Origin: Gemmata massiliana
Lineage (GTDB): Bacteria; Planctomycetota; Planctomycetia; Gemmatales; Gemmataceae
DNA length: 64,000 nt
Assembly: GCF_901538265.1 (NCBI RefSeq)
Contig: NZ_LR593886.1
Coordinates: forward strand, 3,208,843 to 3,272,842
Direction of reading: 5' to 3'
Shown: positions 7,177 to 31,315 of the stretch, one piece after another
Numbering within the stretch: the stretch's first letter is position 1
Layout: each line of letters begins with the position of its first letter
Made by a program: the position numbers and the translations under genes
Notes under the pieces: generated by a model
The model's input: only the letters and a program-made list of their open reading frames with translations
Database searches by the model: none
Told to the model about the DNA's origin: nothing

Positions 7177-10095
7177 TCACACAGTTCGGAGCAGTGCTAC
7201 CGGGAACGCTCCCAGGACCGCGCCCACCGGCAGGGAACCGCCGCTCGGTTCCACCGCTGCTCCCGTAAACACATTCTCCCAACGCGCCGCCGTGAACTCT
7301 TCGGGGAGCGGTAATGCGGTGTCGCCCCACGCACTGTGACGGGCCGGCAGGCGCGGAACGATGACCGCGGCAGCCCGTGACCCGTCCGTGCGGAGGAACG
7401 CGAACACGCGATCCGTCTGATCGCCAATTGCCGCGAGCGGCACGTATTTGCCGCGGGCGAACACGTCCGGCCACTCGCGCCGGGCGCGCAGTGCGAGAGC
7501 GGTCACGAACAGTTTCGTGCGCGGGTCGGAGAGGCTCGCGGCGAGCTCGCGCGCGAGGCGATTCCGACCGTCGCTCGTGGCACTTCGGGCATCAATATCG
7601 CGCAACCACTCCGCACGCGAATCGTAATCGACCGGCCGGCGGTTGTCCGGATCCACGAGCGAGAAATCCCACGATTCTGTGCCCTGGTACGTATCCGGAA
7701 CTCCGGGGGCCGCACAGCGGATCAGCGTTTGTGCCAGCGAGTTGATGCGCCCGAACCCCGCCACGCGCTCGGCGAACGCCCCCAGATCGCGGAGGAACGC
7801 GCCGGAGACGTCCGCGTCCAGCACGCGGTCAATAAACGTCGCGATTGCGGCTTCGTACTCCGGGTTCGGGTTGATCCAGCTCGTGTGAACTTTCGCCTCG
7901 GCCAGTGCCTTCCGCATGTACTCGCGGATGCGCGGGGTAAAATCTGAGGGGGTGAAGGGGTGAGCGGGTGAAGGGGAGATAAAGACCTCAGCGCCCTCTA
8001 TCTTTTTCACCCCTTCACCCGCTCCCCCCTTCACCCCCTCACCAAGGAAGGGCCACGCACCGACGAGCGTTTGGTACAGAAGGTACTCTTCGTTCGCGCC
8101 CGGAGCGAGCGTGCCGTCGACTTCGGTTCTGTGCGCGTGGTTCAGCCCGGACCAGTGCGTGACGCGCTCGGCCCATTCTTCGGGGATCTCCGACAGCACG
8201 CTGATTCGCGCCCGCACGTCTTCACCGCGCTTGGTGTCGTGTGTCGAGAGCGGTGATAACCCGCCGGGCATTGTGATACGGGCGGCGAGAAAGGCGTGAA
8301 CCGCGTCCGGCTTCCATCCAAACTTTCCCGGCTCCCCGCCCACTTCGTTGAGCGAGGTGAGCCGGTTGTACACGTAGAACGCAGTGTCTTCCACGCCCTT
8401 GGCCGCCACCGGCGATGTGACCTGCTGGAACTTGCCGGCGAAGCTCCGCTGGAGGGCGCGGTATTCGGACGACGCCGGGCCGCTCGGCGAATCTTTCAGG
8501 AGTACAGTATCGCGGATGAAATCGAACACCGTCTTGCCTAGCAGCGGGTTCCGCCGGTACGCCCAGCGCGTCGCTTTCCCAATGACGGCCTTATCGGTGT
8601 CGGTTACGGTGTCGGTAACGTAGGACCGGTACACCGGGAAACACGCGACCACCTCGCGCAGTGCTTTCCGGATACCGTTGAGCGTGAAGTCGCGGCTGCG
8701 CCGGTCGCGGCGTGCGATGCGGTCGAGTTGGTGCGCGAGCGCGTTTAGTTCGCTCGCGAGCGACGACTGCGACACCTGGCGCTTCCCGCGGTACACCACT
8801 TCGGGCCACGGATCGTCTAGCCCGGTGAACTGCTGGTAGAACGCGGTGAGCGGGCCTTCGCCTGAACGATCGACGAATAGACCGTTGACTGCGTGAATGA
8901 ACTCGTAACCCGTTGTCCCGGCACACGCCCAATCGGGGGGCAGTGTTTCGCCGTCGCCGAGGATCTTCTCCACCACGACGTAGAGCGGTTTCTCGCCCCC
9001 GCACGCGGACTGGAGCCGGTCGAGGTACTCTTTGGGATCGAACAGGCCGTCCGGGTGGTCGATGCGCAGCCCATCGGCGATCCCCGCACGCACCCAGCGG
9101 AACCAGGTCGCGTGGACCGCGTCGAACACCTCTGCGTGCTCGGTACTGAGCGCGGCGAGGTCGTTCACGTCGAAGAACCGGCGGTAGTTGATCTCGTCCG
9201 AAGCGACGCGCCAGAAACACGGGCGGTACGCTTGCGCTTCGAGGAGTTCGTCGAGCGCGGCGAAGCTCGCTGGATCGCCCGCTTTCCCCGCGATGGTGAC
9301 CAGGGCCGCGCTTATCGCGTCGGCCGCTTCGGGGAACCGCTCGGCGAGTTCTGTGAGCCGGCGACAAATTGCAATTACCTCCACGCGCATTTCCGCAACG
9401 CGCGCTGCGTCCGTCTCTGTTCGTGGCGGAAGATTTTTGACCGCGTGGAGAACGCTCGCCAATTCGATCACCGACGGGTGCTCGGGGCCGAACTTCTCGC
9501 GCACGAGGATCGCGGCCGGTGCGAGAATACGGTCGTAGGTGCGCGGATCGAGCGGGAGCTGGTTGTCGTGGACGCGGACGGCGAACCCGCCGTTCTCGAA
9601 CGCGGGCACGAATTGCCCGGATTCGAGAACGGCCCCATACTGGTCACCCAGTACGGGGAGCAGCAACCGGCCGTGCATCTGCGGGCGCGGCGAATCGTTC
9701 CATGCGATGTCGAAGTGCCCGGCGAACCGCGACGCTTGACCGTGTTCGAGCAGGTCCGCCCACCACGAGTTCCCGGTTCCCACACACATGTGGTTCGGCA
9801 CCGCGTCCAAAAGTAACCCCATGCCGCGCTCGCGCAGGTCCGCGCCGAGTGCGGCGAGATCGTCTTCCGTTCCCACTTCGGGGTTCAGCGCGGAGTGGTC
9901 GATTACGTCGTAACCGTGTGTGCTCCCTGGGCGCGCTTTTAAGATGGGAGAGGCATAGAGGTGCGTAACACCGAGCGCGTGCAAGTAAGGCACGACCGCA
10001 CGGGCATCGCGAAGTCTGAAACCGGCGTGAAACTGGAGCCGGTACGTCGCCCCGGGAACGTGCGCCGCACGCACCGGGGTGTAGGAGGAACTCAT
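7177..10095 (-). CDS. treY: Malto-oligosyltrehalose synthase with in-frame repeat insertion
   Basis: A GH13 enzyme of 972 residues that isomerises the reducing-end alpha-1,4 bond of maltodextrins to alpha,alpha-1,1. Seen: ATYRLQFHAGFRL at the N-terminus, LLDAVPNHM, GLRIDHPDGLFDP at about 342-354 (catalytic Asp), VVVEKIL (acid/base Glu near 376) and the C-terminal FSLVDPDNRRPVDY block. The start is taken at MSSSYTP (10095), where family similarity begins, rather than 22 codons upstream. It is longer than usual partly because a 95-bp palindromic element at 7946-8040 adds about 31 Gly/Pro/Lys-rich residues (near 686-717) between VGAWPF and the conserved AKVHTSWINPN. The reading frame is intact, so the enzyme is probably active with a loop insertion. 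Confidence 0.95.
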   Translation of the reverse strand: MSSSYTPVRAAHVPGATYRLQFHAGFRLRDARAVVPYLHALGVTHLYASPILKARPGSTHGYDVIDHSALNPEVGTEDDLAALGADLRERGMGLLLDAVPNHMCVGTGNSWWADLLEHGQASRFAGHFDIAWNDSPRPQMHGRLLLPVLGDQYGAVLESGQFVPAFENGGFAVRVHDNQLPLDPRTYDRILAPAAILVREKFGPEHPSVIELASVLHAVKNLPPRTETDAARVAEMRVEVIAICRRLTELAERFPEAADAISAALVTIAGKAGDPASFAALDELLEAQAYRPCFWRVASDEINYRRFFDVNDLAALSTEHAEVFDAVHATWFRWVRAGIADGLRIDHPDGLFDPKEYLDRLQSACGGEKPLYVVVEKILGDGETLPPDWACAGTTGYEFIHAVNGLFVDRSGEGPLTAFYQQFTGLDDPWPEVVYRGKRQVSQSSLASELNALAHQLDRIARRDRRSRDFTLNGIRKALREVVACFPVYRSYVTDTVTDTDKAVIGKATRWAYRRNPLLGKTVFDFIRDTVLLKDSPSGPASSEYRALQRSFAGKFQQVTSPVAAKGVEDTAFYVYNRLTSLNEVGGEPGKFGWKPDAVHAFLAARITMPGGLSPLSTHDTKRGEDVRARISVLSEIPEEWAERVTHWSGLNHAHRTEVDGTLAPGANEEYLLYQTLVGAWPFLGEGVKGGAGEGVKKIEGAEVFISPSPAHPFTPSDFTPRIREYMRKALAEAKVHTSWINPNPEYEAAIATFIDRVLDADVSGAFLRDLGAFAERVAGFGRINSLAQTLIRCAAPGVPDTYQGTESWDFSLVDPDNRRPVDYDSRAEWLRDIDARSATSDGRNRLARELAASLSDPRTKLFVTALALRARREWPDVFARGKYVPLAAIGDQTDRVFAFLRTDGSRAAAVIVPRLPARHSAWGDTALPLPEEFTAARWENVFTGAAVEPSGGSLPVGAVLGAFPVALLRTV
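7946..8040. repeat. Palindromic element inserted in frame in treY
   Basis: Arms of 31 bases at 7946-7976 and 8010-8040 are reverse complements with one mismatch and enclose a 33-base centre. Each arm is built from repeats of gtgaagggg or ccccttcac. A looser relative lies at 20578-20672. Its length keeps the treY frame open in the direction used. Confidence 0.9.
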
Positions 10096-10434
10096 TGAGC
10101 CGTTTCGTTTTAAATCAGCGGTCGCGGTTCCGGACCCGACCTCGCCGGCACACGTCTGCATTCAAACCGTGGCGAGTAGGAAGATGCAAGTTTCGCGCCT
10201 ACTCCGGGGCAGAGGCAGTGTGGTGGGGTGTTGTGTGCTGTCGAATGAACCAGAGCGGATCGGAAGAGGTAAAGAATTTGCAGCGGATTAACGCGAATGA
10301 ACGTGGATTTGGAAAATGAGATTCGAGTGCCAAGAATGGGATACCGGAGTTTTTCCAATCTGCGTTTATCTGCGTTATCCGCGGTTCTGGTTCTCTTCTG
10401 TTGGATATTTGTGAACAGAAGTGCGCAAACGAAA
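10096..10434. other. Intergenic region upstream of treY, no gene seen
   Basis: The gap is less GC-rich than its surroundings. It contains phrases such as gcggattaacgcgaatgaac (10275-10294) and ctgcgtttatctgcgttatc (10361-10380), which look like degenerate dispersed repeats; similar wording recurs at 14205-14250 and 42250-42290. The treY promoter should lie here but no clear -10/-35 pair was picked out. Confidence 0.4.
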
Positions 10435-20577: not shown

Positions 20578-20672
20578 AGGGTGAAGGGGCGCGTGGGTGA
20601 AGGGGGGAAATGACAAAAGTGTAGGGCTTTTGCCTTTTTTTACCCTTACCCTTCGACCCTTCGCTTCACCAA
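20578..20672. repeat. Second, looser copy of the treY-type palindromic element
   Basis: The left half (gggtgaaggggcgcgtgggt then gaagggggg) and the right half (tacccttacccttcgaccct then tcgcttcacc) flank an A/T-containing centre ending in ccttttttt, the same plan as the element in treY. The right half codes for the last residues (KRRVEG) and stop codon of the leftward gene ending at 20646. Confidence 0.7.
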
Positions 20673-21212
20673 TTCACTGACGGCTTTGAACTGTGGGTGG
20701 GTCGCGTCGGTCAGCCACTCGAACGCGACCGCTGCGACGGTGGTCGGGACCGCACCGGCCTGTTCGAGCCGGCGGAGCGCCGTGGAGTGATCGAGGTCGT
20801 ATCGCGCCCCGAGCGCGTCCACCGGGAGGAACACGTGCAACCCGGCGCGGAGCAGGTCCAGGGCGGTCTGAGCAACGCACACGTGCGTTTCCATGCCGAC
20901 AAGCACCACGTCCGGGCGCCGGAGCATTTCGAGTTCTTCGAGGAACGTCCCGGCCCCGCAGCAACTGAACGCGGTCTTCGCGGGCAGGTTGGCCGGGAGC
21001 CGGAGCGCGATTTCCGGGGCGGTGGGGCCGAGCCCCTTGGGGTACTGCTCGGTGGCGCGCGCGGGCACTTCCAGTAGCGCCGCGACGTCGAGCACGAAGC
21101 CCGTGTTCCGCAGGAGCGCCGGGGCGCTCGGGATCTTCGCCAGCAGTTTGTCCTGGATGTCGATCACGACGACGACCGACGTCTCCGCGCGCAGGCGCTT
21201 CACGGTGCTCAT
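20646..21212 (-). CDS. Isochorismatase-family hydrolase
   Basis: A 188-residue cysteine hydrolase-fold protein. The triad residues can be placed at D18 (VVVVIDIQD), K79 (PAKTAFSC) and C112 (VGMETHVCVAQTAL); the last includes the family's cis-peptide region. The substrate is unknown; relatives hydrolyse isochorismate, nicotinamide or other amides. It starts three bases after the transglutaminase gene ends, so it is the fourth gene of the moxR unit, an unusual partner. The final residues KRRVEG are encoded by one arm of a palindromic repeat, suggesting that the original C-terminus was replaced. Confidence 0.85.
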   Translation of the reverse strand: MSTVKRLRAETSVVVVIDIQDKLLAKIPSAPALLRNTGFVLDVAALLEVPARATEQYPKGLGPTAPEIALRLPANLPAKTAFSCCGAGTFLEELEMLRRPDVVLVGMETHVCVAQTALDLLRAGLHVFLPVDALGARYDLDHSTALRRLEQAGAVPTTVAAVAFEWLTDATHPQFKAVSELVKRRVEG

Positions 21213-25721: not shown

Positions 25722-25852
25722 GTGAACCCTGCGCGCAAGAGCGGCAAACGAGTGAACCCCGCCCGCAAGGGCGGCGGGTGGCGTTGTGCAGGCGCTACCA
25801 GTTACGGTGAGCCGCTACACCGGCACCCGCCGCCCTTGCGGGCGGGGTTCAC
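25722..25852. repeat. Large inverted repeat with an extra degenerate copy
   Basis: Positions 25752-25780 and 25824-25852 are perfect reverse complements over 29 bases with a 43-base interior. Directly before the left arm, 25722-25750 is a degenerate direct copy of the same unit (gtgaaccctgcgcgcaagag). The array starts nine bases after the stop of the leftward S1 gene, so on the minus strand it could act as its terminator. It looks like an intergenic palindromic element. Confidence 0.85.
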
Positions 25853-27517: not shown

Positions 27518-28540
27518 ATGTCCAACGGCAAGCACAGGAAGCTTCGGCTCGCGATCGAGACCGTGGTCGCGATCGTGATCGTGATCGCGGTGGGGTGGAG
27601 TTTCCACAATACCCTGAAGGGGATCGAACCCGGGACGCTCCCGATCCGCGTGCGGGTGGAGCTGCTAATTCCGGCCGGCGTGTTGTACCTGCTCGCGCAC
27701 CTGTGCTGGTCCACGTTCTGGGTGCGATTGCTGCACAGTCAGGGCGTTCGGGTGTCGTGGTGGGTCGGGTTGCGAGCGTACTACATCAGTCAGTTCGGGA
27801 AGTACATCCCGGGCAAACTGGCCGTGTTGGTGATGCGCGTCACGATGTTACGGCTCCACGGAGGGCGCCCGGTGTCGGTCGCCGTGACCGCGACCTACGA
27901 GACGCTCACGAGCATGGCCGCCGGGGCGCTTTTGGGCGTACTGTTTTTGCCCACGTTGGGGGTGCTGCCGCCCGAAATTTCGGGCCGCACGACGCTCTTG
28001 CTTGCGGTCGCCGCCCTCCCGTTGGGGCTGGCGGTTCTGAACAAACTCGCGGTCCGAATCGCGGAGAAGCGGCGCCCACCAGACTCGCCGCCGTTGCCGT
28101 CGCCGTCCGTTCTGCTTCTGGCACAGGGACTCGTTCACGGTGCGTGTGGATACTGTTTGTTGGCACTTAGCTTGGGTTTGACTGTTCACGGGCTGCTGCC
28201 GGACGCGCCGGGGTGGGGCGCCAAAGCGTTTACGATGGACCTGGCCGCGGTCGCGCTGTGCTACGTCGCGGGGTTCGTGATCGTGGTCGCGCCCGGCGGA
28301 CTCGGTGCCCGTGAGTTCGTGTTGCGGTGGGCGCTGGCCCCGCAGTTCGTGTCCGCACTGGGTACGGAGCACGCGGGGCAGGTAGCCATTGTGGTGGCCC
28401 TCGCACTCCGCTTGACGTGGACCATTGCGGAAGTCGTGGTCGGTCTTTTACTCTACGCGAAGAAGCCCGCTCTCCCCCCACCAGTTCGTCACGACGAAAC
28501 GATCCCGATTCACCACGAGAAGTCGCATGCCAAGCCGTGA
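27518..28540 (+). CDS. YbhN/UPF0104-type membrane protein (lysylphosphatidylglycerol synthase TM family)
   Basis: A 340-residue protein with about eight membrane helices. Conserved family pieces are SQFGKYIPGKLAVLVMRVTM near 90-109 and VVAPGGLGAREFVLRWAL near 250-267. Relatives flip or transport lipids or lipid-linked intermediates, or are the membrane half of MprF. Here there is no aminoacyl transferase domain. Its stop lies 14 bases inside the next gene (GT2), and the third gene overlaps in turn, so the three are co-translated. A role in envelope lipid or glycolipid assembly is inferred. Confidence 0.88.
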   Translation: MSNGKHRKLRLAIETVVAIVIVIAVGWSFHNTLKGIEPGTLPIRVRVELLIPAGVLYLLAHLCWSTFWVRLLHSQGVRVSWWVGLRAYYISQFGKYIPGKLAVLVMRVTMLRLHGGRPVSVAVTATYETLTSMAAGALLGVLFLPTLGVLPPEISGRTTLLLAVAALPLGLAVLNKLAVRIAEKRRPPDSPPLPSPSVLLLAQGLVHGACGYCLLALSLGLTVHGLLPDAPGWGAKAFTMDLAAVALCYVAGFVIVVAPGGLGAREFVLRWALAPQFVSALGTEHAGQVAIVVALALRLTWTIAEVVVGLLLYAKKPALPPPVRHDETIPIHHEKSHAKP

Positions 28541-29717
28541 CGGACACGAAGACCAACCTACCCCCCCGTCCCCCCTCCCTGAAGGGAAGGGGGAAAGCCA
28601 AAGTCAACCTAACCCCCTAACCCCCTTCCCTAGGAAGGAAGGGGGAACGGAACCAAAAACAGGAATCGACACGCCGCGAGCGCCGGTTTTAAGCCCCTCT
28701 CCTTTTGGGGGAGGGATTGGGGAGGGGTTGCAGCCACAACCTACCCCCGATCTCCTCTCGTTGGTGATTCCCGTTTTCAACGAGCGGGAGAGCCTCGTCG
28801 CGCTGCACGCGGAGATCACCGAAGTCGCGCAGAAACTCACCGAGCGCGTCGAGATGATCTTCGTCGACGACGGCAGTAAGGACGGCTCCTGGGGCATCGT
28901 GTGTGATTTGGCTACCAAGGACGACCGCGTGCGCGGGATCAAGTTTCGGCGCAACTTCGGTAAGGCTGCCGCGCTCGCTGCGGGGTTCTCGGCGGCGCGC
29001 GGGAGTGTCGTCATCACGATGGACGCGGACCTGCAAGACGATCCGCACGAGATCCCGCACTTTTTGGACGCGCTGCGGGGCGGGTTGGACGTCGTGAGCG
29101 GCTGGAAAAAGGTTCGACACGACCCCTGGCACAAGGTGTTCCCGAGTCGCGTGTTCAACAAATTCCTGAGCGTGCTGACCGGCGTTCACCTTCACGACCA
29201 CAACTGTGGGATGAAGGCGTACCGCGCGGAATCGCTCCGGGAGGTTTATCTGTACGGGGAGCTTCACCGGTTCGTGCCGGTCCTCGCGACCGCACGCGGG
29301 TTCAAGGTGGGCGAACTCGTCATCCAGCACCGCGCGCGAAAATTTGGCAGTTCCAAGTACGGCTGGAAACGCTTTATCAAGGGTGCGCTCGACGTGACCA
29401 CCGTGCGGCTGCTCACCGGCTTCGGGCGCCGTCCGAACCACTTCCTCGGTGCGTGGGGGCTGACGTTCGGGAGCGGTGCGGTGTTCGGCCTGCTCCTGTT
29501 GCTAGCGAACCTGTTCCTGCGGCTGATCGACGGCACCCTCGGTGCCGGTCCGTTCACGCAAATGGTCGTGTTGATTCTGTCGGTGGGTTGTGGTCTGCTC
29601 GGTGCCCAGTGCTTGCTGGCGGGTTTGGTGACGGAAATGACCGTCGCACGGAAGTGGCTCGACAACGACCCGTACAGCGTCGCGGAGCACACACCAACCA
29701 AGCAGGAAGCTCGCTGA
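28527..29717 (+). CDS. Family 2 glycosyltransferase, DPM1-like, with two C-terminal membrane helices
   Basis: A 396-residue protein if the ATG at 28527 is used. The catalytic domain begins about residue 74: LLSLVIPVFNERESL, then MIFVDDGSKDGSW, MDADLQDDP (the DxD-type metal site) and a KYGWKRFIKGALD motif. Two hydrophobic segments near 300-330 and 345-370 anchor it. Related enzymes move a sugar from a nucleotide donor to a polyprenyl phosphate. The first 73 residues are low complexity and are encoded by three palindromic repeats (PPSPLPEGKGE, NPLTPFPRKEGGT, VLSPSPFGGGIGEG). A non-ATG start nearer the domain cannot be excluded; no ATG lies between the repeats and the domain. Confidence 0.9.
   Translation: MPSRDGHEDQPTPPSPLPEGKGESQSQPNPLTPFPRKEGGTEPKTGIDTPRAPVLSPSPFGGGIGEGLQPQPTPDLLSLVIPVFNERESLVALHAEITEVAQKLTERVEMIFVDDGSKDGSWGIVCDLATKDDRVRGIKFRRNFGKAAALAAGFSAARGSVVITMDADLQDDPHEIPHFLDALRGGLDVVSGWKKVRHDPWHKVFPSRVFNKFLSVLTGVHLHDHNCGMKAYRAESLREVYLYGELHRFVPVLATARGFKVGELVIQHRARKFGSSKYGWKRFIKGALDVTTVRLLTGFGRRPNHFLGAWGLTFGSGAVFGLLLLLANLFLRLIDGTLGAGPFTQMVVLILSVGCGLLGAQCLLAGLVTEMTVARKWLDNDPYSVAEHTPTKQEAR
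28571..28727. repeat. Three palindromic repeats at the 5' end of the GT2 gene
   Basis: Imperfect palindromes lie at 28571-28593 (ccccctccctgaagggaagg), 28621-28645 (cccccttccctaggaaggaa) and 28694-28727 (cccctctccttttgggggag). They share the C-rich/G-rich arm composition and are separated by about 27 and 48 bases. All three are inside the open reading frame of the glycosyltransferase. Confidence 0.85.
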
Positions 29718-31248: not shown

Positions 31249-31315
31249 CGTCGGGCACAGCCCGACCTACCGAAAACTATGTGGGGATGTGTTGTAGGTC
31301 GGGCTGTGCCCGACG
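31249..31315. repeat. Inverted repeat with 22-bp perfect arms
   Basis: Positions 31249-31270 and 31294-31315 are perfect reverse complements (core gtaggtcgggctgtgcccga) around a 23-base loop. Each arm also has an internal palindrome (tcgggcacagcccga). The element starts 26 bases after the stop of the membrane protein gene and may end the operon. Confidence 0.85.

Follow-up and report, generated by a model that had tools for sequence, protein, structure and literature searches.

An octamer-based palindromic repeat family lies in frame within treY and other genes of Gemmataceae

Introduction

In-frame palindromes of Rickettsia have been linked to weak selection in small, decaying genomes. The treY gene of Gemmata massiliana raises the question of how a palindrome comes to sit inside a protein-coding gene of a much larger genome and what becomes of it there. 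The gene lies in a stretch of 64,000 nucleotides (here called the window), which is C1:3208843-3272842 of a 10.1-Mb single-contig genome (the own genome, or G000). From the sequence of the window, the original prediction described a palindromic repeat that interrupts treY in frame. We compared this repeat with the remainder of the own genome and with relatives from the family and the phylum.

Results

An in-frame palindrome in treY

We found that treY is an uninterrupted ORF of 994 aa (positions 7177 to 10161 of the window, minus strand). It was assigned as the gene for malto-oligosyltrehalose synthase (MTSase) from the ORF, from solved MTSases, and from TIGR02401, against which the product scored 935 bits (cut-off, 499). 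As predicted, the palindrome lies in frame within an otherwise normal gene. Positions 1 to 95 of a covariance model of the family (R1) matched the element at 7943 to 8043, with no strand assigned (79.5 bits). Judged by codon boundaries and by its absence in relatives, the inserted coding segment comprises TreY residues 706 to 740, LGEGVKGGAGEGVKKIEGAEVFISPSPAHPFTPSD (7942 to 8046, minus strand).

By inverted-repeat search and codon positions, the arms lie at 7945 to 7985 (the 3' arm in the treY sense) and at 8001 to 8041 (the 5' arm, with GGGTGARS-type octamers). Each arm is 41 nt long, the two are 93% complementary, and 15 nt lie between them. The 31-nt arms first described, with their single mismatch (8025 against 7961), are contained in these longer arms. 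This mismatch is the site of a missing in-frame TGA: the codon at 8023 to 8025 (minus strand) is GGA, as it is in G009, and the opposite arm and the family consensus have TGA.

We searched the window for GGGTGAAGGGGTGA, allowing up to two mismatches, and found eight matches, six in the treY element and two at 20579 to 20608. Shuffled windows contained a mean of 0.45 matches, and 0 of 100 shuffles reached eight. With one mismatch, the own genome gave 20 + 20 matches, versus 3 + 2 for the reversed control. The window has further inverted repeats at 434 to 555, 25752 to 25852, and 31249 to 31315, with arms of 44, 36, and 22 nt that are 93 to 100% complementary; all three lie outside called genes.

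Variation of the TreY loop

We sought TreY in 95 genomes of the family, obtained any match in 71, fetched the best 30 loci, and read 27 loops. From a set of 22 loci, we read 6 TreY loops and used the Gemmata rows alone. The segment was present in 3 of the 27 loops (G000, G009, and G014) and absent from 24, including those of G010, G011, and G018. Close relatives without the segment thus exist, as an insertion would predict: the TreY protein of G011 is 88% identical to that of G000, has 39 residues between QTL and TSW against 66 in G000, and has no segment. The TreY protein of G009, which is 96% identical to that of G000, carries it. The QTL-to-TSW spacing is 38 to 39 residues in the nearest relatives without the insert. 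An in-frame addition of about 31 residues had been proposed; the addition stands, and the net gain over these relatives is 27 to 28 residues. The alignment with 6lcv, the best solved MTSase, extends to residue 673 of the TreY fragment and resumes at residue 709; the 6lcv chain residues on the two sides, 531 and 532, are adjacent.

Long loops of a different composition occur in four of the 24 insert-free proteins (G017, G041, G002, and G003), and the TreY loop is therefore generally tolerant. This variation in length is also what speaks for a native TreY loop that is palindromic by chance. We consider that explanation barely credible, because the element is found at 15 further places in the own genome, and in relatives it lies within four more genes.

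Between G000 and G009, 18 of the 105 bases of the treY insert differ (9 nonsynonymous and 3 synonymous codons, with no indel and no stop), compared with 150 of 2,877 bases in the remainder of the gene (35 nonsynonymous and 108 synonymous codons). The nonsynonymous/synonymous ratio differs between insert and remainder (Fisher P = 0.0007). The stem is weaker in G009 (-54.4 kcal/mol, versus -82.2 kcal/mol in G000). In an AlphaFold2 model of TreY built with 19 sequences (mean pLDDT, 78.1), fragment residues 671 to 701 have pLDDT values below 50 and form the lowest blocks, between helices 654-667 and 703-720; the model is low elsewhere too, e.g., at 375 to 395 and 564 to 608. These data suggest that the insert is probably a fast-changing, disordered, tolerated loop.

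The labels for the treY insert, and likewise those for the pyc insert described below, require at least two changes each on trees built without the loop (for TreY, 19 of the 27 proteins), and supported branches force this. The history of the treY insert thus comprises at least two changes, either two gains or one gain and two losses; for pyc, the reading is two gains. We found no base-exact empty site in the relatives compared, in which the native loops are hypervariable.

Distribution of the element

A BLAST search with the treY element found 16 places in the own genome at an E value of ≤0.001. We built R1 from 28 copies and found matches to it in 48 of 95 family genomes (E ≤0.001). Their distribution is patchy, with 0 to at least 44 per genome, on both strands; G014, G087, and G051 are high-copy genomes, and G021 and G023 are no-copy genomes. 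Outside the family, matches were present in at least 8 of 391 genomes sampled across the phylum (E ≤1e-6, with fewer candidates). All of these genome counts are lower bounds, with 44 (family) and 10 (phylum) candidates scored per genome. Together with the gene placement described below, BLAST and R1 establish that this DNA element is found repeatedly and in different settings, as an inserted repeat should be.

The copies used are mostly 85 to 110 nt long (extremes, 60 and 146 nt). In this size and in their dispersal within one genome, they are like the Rickettsia palindromic elements of about 100 to 150 bp. Many copies have the outer ends GAAGAGAA in common, and the inner part is variable. The octamers of the arm consist of GGGTGA plus AG, GC, AC, or GG. 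An exact GAAGGGGTGA occurs 104 + 114 times in G014, versus 1 + 2 times for the reversed control.

Units related to the treY repeat had been suspected at 20578 and 28571. The first is a degenerate copy of the octamer family at 20580 to 20665 (R1, 28.0 bits and E = 0.0025; BLAST, E = 4.9e-4), inside which the called gene at 20646 to 21212 (minus strand) terminates (gap, -20). The second belongs to a different palindrome family, with units at 28555 to 28593 and 28681 to 28731, downstream of the called gene at 27518 to 28540.

Single-arm copies of the octamer family occur at L010, L011, and L016. In the own genome, about ten GGGTGAAG octamers also form a purely tandem array with no second arm (L008; G000:C1:8269976-8270062). 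At L145 of G009 (contig C11), positions 1965 to 1998 hold a 34-base string where an element arm would be expected; we take this string to be loxP, possibly from a sequencing linker that was retained during assembly.

Stop codons at gene ends

We placed 101 copies from seven genomes relative to genes with a purpose-written codon-usage gene caller. These are the best-scoring copies rather than a random sample; 15 came from a peptide search, and the rest came from R1. The placement omits L227, L228, L229, and L231 (genomes with few loci), L232 (a duplicate of L169), single-arm places with no R1 match, and eight R1 matches (L118, L129, L143, L150, L162, L180 twice, and L188); some of these eight represent another palindrome family.

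Six of the 101 copies lie inside genes. Among the 95 copies outside genes, 76 have a called stop from -25 to +12 nt of the element edge, whereas randomly chosen positions outside genes of the same loci gave a fraction of 0.186 (93 copies). The gene-end location suggested for the family therefore holds: these 76 copies abut the 3' end of a gene. The stop lies within the element in 35 of the 95, and 25 of these 35 are at gaps of -5, -13, or -21, which are octamer steps. We rejected L226 as an in-gene copy, which lies between two gene starts despite its open frame, and also L227, L228, L229, and L230, which have open frames and are located at gene ends.

Stops near or inside the element, together with strong stems, would also be expected of functional hairpins at gene ends (terminators or stabilizers of mRNA 3' ends) of which the in-gene copies are accidents. 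This idea is compatible with mobile palindromes, and we hold it to be possible but doubtful. Purging of harmful insertions would yield an equal gene-end bias, and, by eye, no T-run follows the inspected stems. An Rfam search of six loci gave no match at the gathering score, and we set aside a known RNA family for these six.

Direct repeats of at least 5 nt flank 7 of the 101 copies, versus 6.75% by chance, and repeats of at least 7 nt flank 2 of the 101, versus 0.4% by chance. Among these copies, we found nothing clear as a target-site duplication. The family is palindromic and dispersed, lies at gene ends, and supplies stop codons, as is described for GTAG REPs (PMC3733652). It might be a REP/REPIN family mobilized by a RAYT, or it might be a classical MITE derived from an insertion sequence. 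We consider either origin quite improbable, since target duplication is not clear, the consensus of 28 copies contains neither GTAG nor CGTC, and the own genome has no match to Y1_Tnp (PF01797, RAYT) at an E value of ≤0.001. With the same domain, 5 of 14 control genomes matched. We rejected a RAYT/REPIN origin for the own genome because the genome lacks PF01797 and the consensus lacks the tag. By eye, no autonomous relative with the same ends was seen among the 100 places listed of 218, all in G014.

In-gene copies and the missing TGA

Using a peptide profile and gene calls, we found eight gene-lineage cases of in-frame copies in five genes. These are treY (G000/G009 and G014), pyc (pyruvate carboxylase; G014 and G087, with a decayed copy in G089), nuoL (octamer copies in G009 and G022), moeA (G014), and the gene for a YdiJ-like FAD/4Fe-4S dehydrogenase (G014). 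Four of the eight cases come from G014, which is probably a metagenome assembly. Pyc and NuoL pass the NCBIfam cut-offs; MoeA and the dehydrogenase fall below theirs, with Pfam domains above cut-off. In the own genome, treY is the sole strong in-gene match of the octamer family. Weak partial matches lie in long frames, e.g., at G009:C1:1268597, G009:C5:216258, and G000:C1:3274879.

All in-gene copies use one frame, which reads GEGVKGG.GEGV...TPSP.HPFTPS or nearly so. In this coding frame, the consensus has a TGA, in the third octamer, and we found that this TGA is absent from every in-gene copy. The site reads GGA in G000/G009 treY and in G009 nuoL; CGA in G087 pyc; AGA in G014 moeA, G022 nuoL, and the shortened G089 pyc arm; and GGT in three genes of G014, namely, pyc, treY, and the dehydrogenase gene. 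A stable hairpin within a coding sequence could also mean that the protein lacks the segment, either through its excision from the RNA or through ribosomal skipping. This is very improbable: in every in-gene copy, the reading frame is intact and the consensus TGA is missing, and skipping would need neither.

Among the copies outside genes, any of the six frames was open in 18 of 95. The corresponding count was 1 of 36 in G014 and 6 of 8 in the own genome, where the copies are degenerate and some are open in the coding frame via TGC or TGG. Because of this difference, freedom from stops is telling in G014 and weak evidence in the own genome. Exact matches to a 22-nt stop-free arm variant, GGGGGTGGGGGTGAAGGGGTGA, occur at 4 of 295 loci, of which three represent the G014 pyc locus and one is its dehydrogenase locus. 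The treY gene of G014 has this variant with one additional change.

For pyc, we fetched 30 loci, left out four, and skipped four others (G092, G020, G010, and G016), which gave a tree of 22. In the relatives, the linkers are similar in length, have unrelated sequences, and contain no element. We therefore dropped pyc as a clean empty site. The pyc linker of G011 appears to resemble a decayed copy. The octamer element of nuoL is present in G009 and G022 and absent in G011, G012, G018, and others. That the insert is missing from orthologs thus holds for treY and nuoL.

Evolution of the arms and of the nuoL loop

Across 28 copies, 94.4% of arm cells pair, versus 87.9% in shuffled arms, and sliding the partner arm by 1 to 3 columns lowers pairing to 49 to 58%. 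Changes on both sides were found in 19 of 40 arm pairs (9.3 when shuffled). Counted by arm cell, 65 are changed on both sides (20.1 when shuffled) and 13 on one side. Complementarity extends at least 8 nt past R1 in 4 of the 101 copies, versus 0.2% by chance, and in one of the four (L236), it continues through element-like sequence. Template switching between arms would keep them alike (PMC8794818; PMC6649704). Because template switching gives the same pattern, covariation of the arms is no proof of RNA function; the excess of double over one-sided changes favors homogenization at the DNA level over selected hairpins. Most likely, arm identity would be kept by replication template switching, as the double changes and the arms running into the flanks suggest.

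These same observations bear on the possibility that nothing transposes: slippage would generate tandem GGGTGAAG octamers, which replication template switching would then turn into palindromes, with independent origins at many places. The pure octamer array and the single-arm copies, the arms that change mostly on both sides, the complementarity beyond the model, and the want of a clear target duplication are all in keeping with it. We nevertheless judge it unlikely. Outer and inner ends are common to many copies, length is near constant in G014, and the 22-nt stop-free variant in pyc and the dehydrogenase gene of G014, one change off in treY, looks like copying.

In the own genome, nuoL holds an in-frame palindrome of the second family (L277; G000:C1, ~6192842) that is 92% identical to the window units at 28555 to 28593 and 28681 to 28731; the second family is also found at own locus L049. 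The nuoL palindromes of G016, G024, and G026 match the second-family repeats of the window at 98, 85, and 90%, respectively. A third family (GGCGAGCCGGGAGCGTGAGC...) occupies the nuoL loop of G014 (L285) and is 90 to 95% identical to repeats at L123, L128, and L129. The nuoL palindromes of all three families are in frame. Since octamer, second-family, and third-family palindromes are all found there, three dispersed families have used the nuoL loop. The nuoL loops of G012 (L286) and G025 (L293) hold local palindromes that are 75% identical to each other and match neither the window nor the G014 loci.

Discussion

We conclude that the treY palindrome very probably belongs to a family of short, nonautonomous mobile palindromes that are dispersed in Gemmataceae and are sometimes read through as protein segments. 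Copies lie mostly at gene 3' ends, where the TGA of the octamer arm can serve as the stop codon. When read in the coding frame, the arm of the CACCCCTT type is free of stops and the GGGTGARS-type arm has one TGA. A copy that lacks this TGA could be read through into about 26 to 39 residues, and stop-free copies would persist in tolerant loops. The TreY segment is thus most likely translated into a loop that is disordered and near neutral. Some enzyme would presumably move the elements in trans.

A broader model is more tentative. Several unrelated palindrome families may keep landing in the same loops (nuoL, treY, and pyc), a stop-free octamer lineage may copy itself from gene to gene, and mobile palindromes may steadily supply new protein segments to bacteria with large genomes. 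Behavior like that of the Rickettsia palindromic elements (RPEs) now appears in 7- to 10-Mb genomes of another phylum, where one loop is shared by more than one family. Genes such as treY and nuoL, with and without the insert, are natural replicates for the neutrality of such segments, and the single TGA of the arm offers a clear test of how a repeat's stop codon decides where the repeat can live. Annotated Gemmataceae proteins can contain repeat-derived segments.

Wolbachia coding palindromes are reportedly in-frame fusions of small repeats with genes. A 107-bp MITE of Neisseria also forms in-frame gene fusions, and a target duplication is tabled for it (PMC2229807). In-frame fusion is common to these systems and the Gemmataceae family, likened here by description; the hosts differ, and unlike the Neisseria MITE, the Gemmataceae family has no clear target duplication. 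Long inverted repeats also lie in genes of nematomorph mitochondria, where template switching was proposed to keep the arms alike (PMC6649704). Both arms of the nematomorph palindromes encode conserved native residues, whereas the Gemmataceae arms are added sequence.

GTAG/CGTC REPs are described (PMC3733652) as located at gene ends and as providing stop codons, with some intra-ORF copies coding for 20 to 30 aa; REPs also occur at about the same recB site in two Xanthomonas species. The Gemmataceae family resembles these REPs and REPINs in its gene-end location, repeat-supplied stops, and copies inside ORFs. It differs in having neither a tag nor, in the own genome, a Y1 transposase, and its single arms are not palindromic alone. 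Among the matches listed, with subscription papers outside the scope, titles and abstract openings gave no report of such elements in Gemmata or planctomycetes. A protein-coding palindrome family with no RAYT in its own genome is, as far as the literature searched goes, new; its movement we infer.

The original prediction likened the treY repeat to RPEs. The likeness holds for behavior (in frame, in unrelated genes, in one frame). In-gene palindromic repeats are described beyond Rickettsia, including in a verrucomicrobium (PMC3733652), and intragenic REPs have been reported from several phyla. RPEs are described as palindromic, about 100 to 150 bp long, dispersed, and in frame in unrelated genes, many of them conserved genes (PMC10969869, PMC2229807, PMC3733652), with several families per genome and tolerance in at least one tested protein (PMC10969869, PMC2229807). 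The Gemmataceae repeats are likewise palindromic, dispersed, in frame in unrelated genes, and of several families per genome. They differ in belonging to another phylum and to GC-rich 7- to 10-Mb genomes, in arms built of 8-nt units, in their location mostly at gene ends, and in a coding frame that lacks one consensus TGA. The octamer family of Gemmataceae thus behaves like RPEs, and the likeness drawn here is one of kind.
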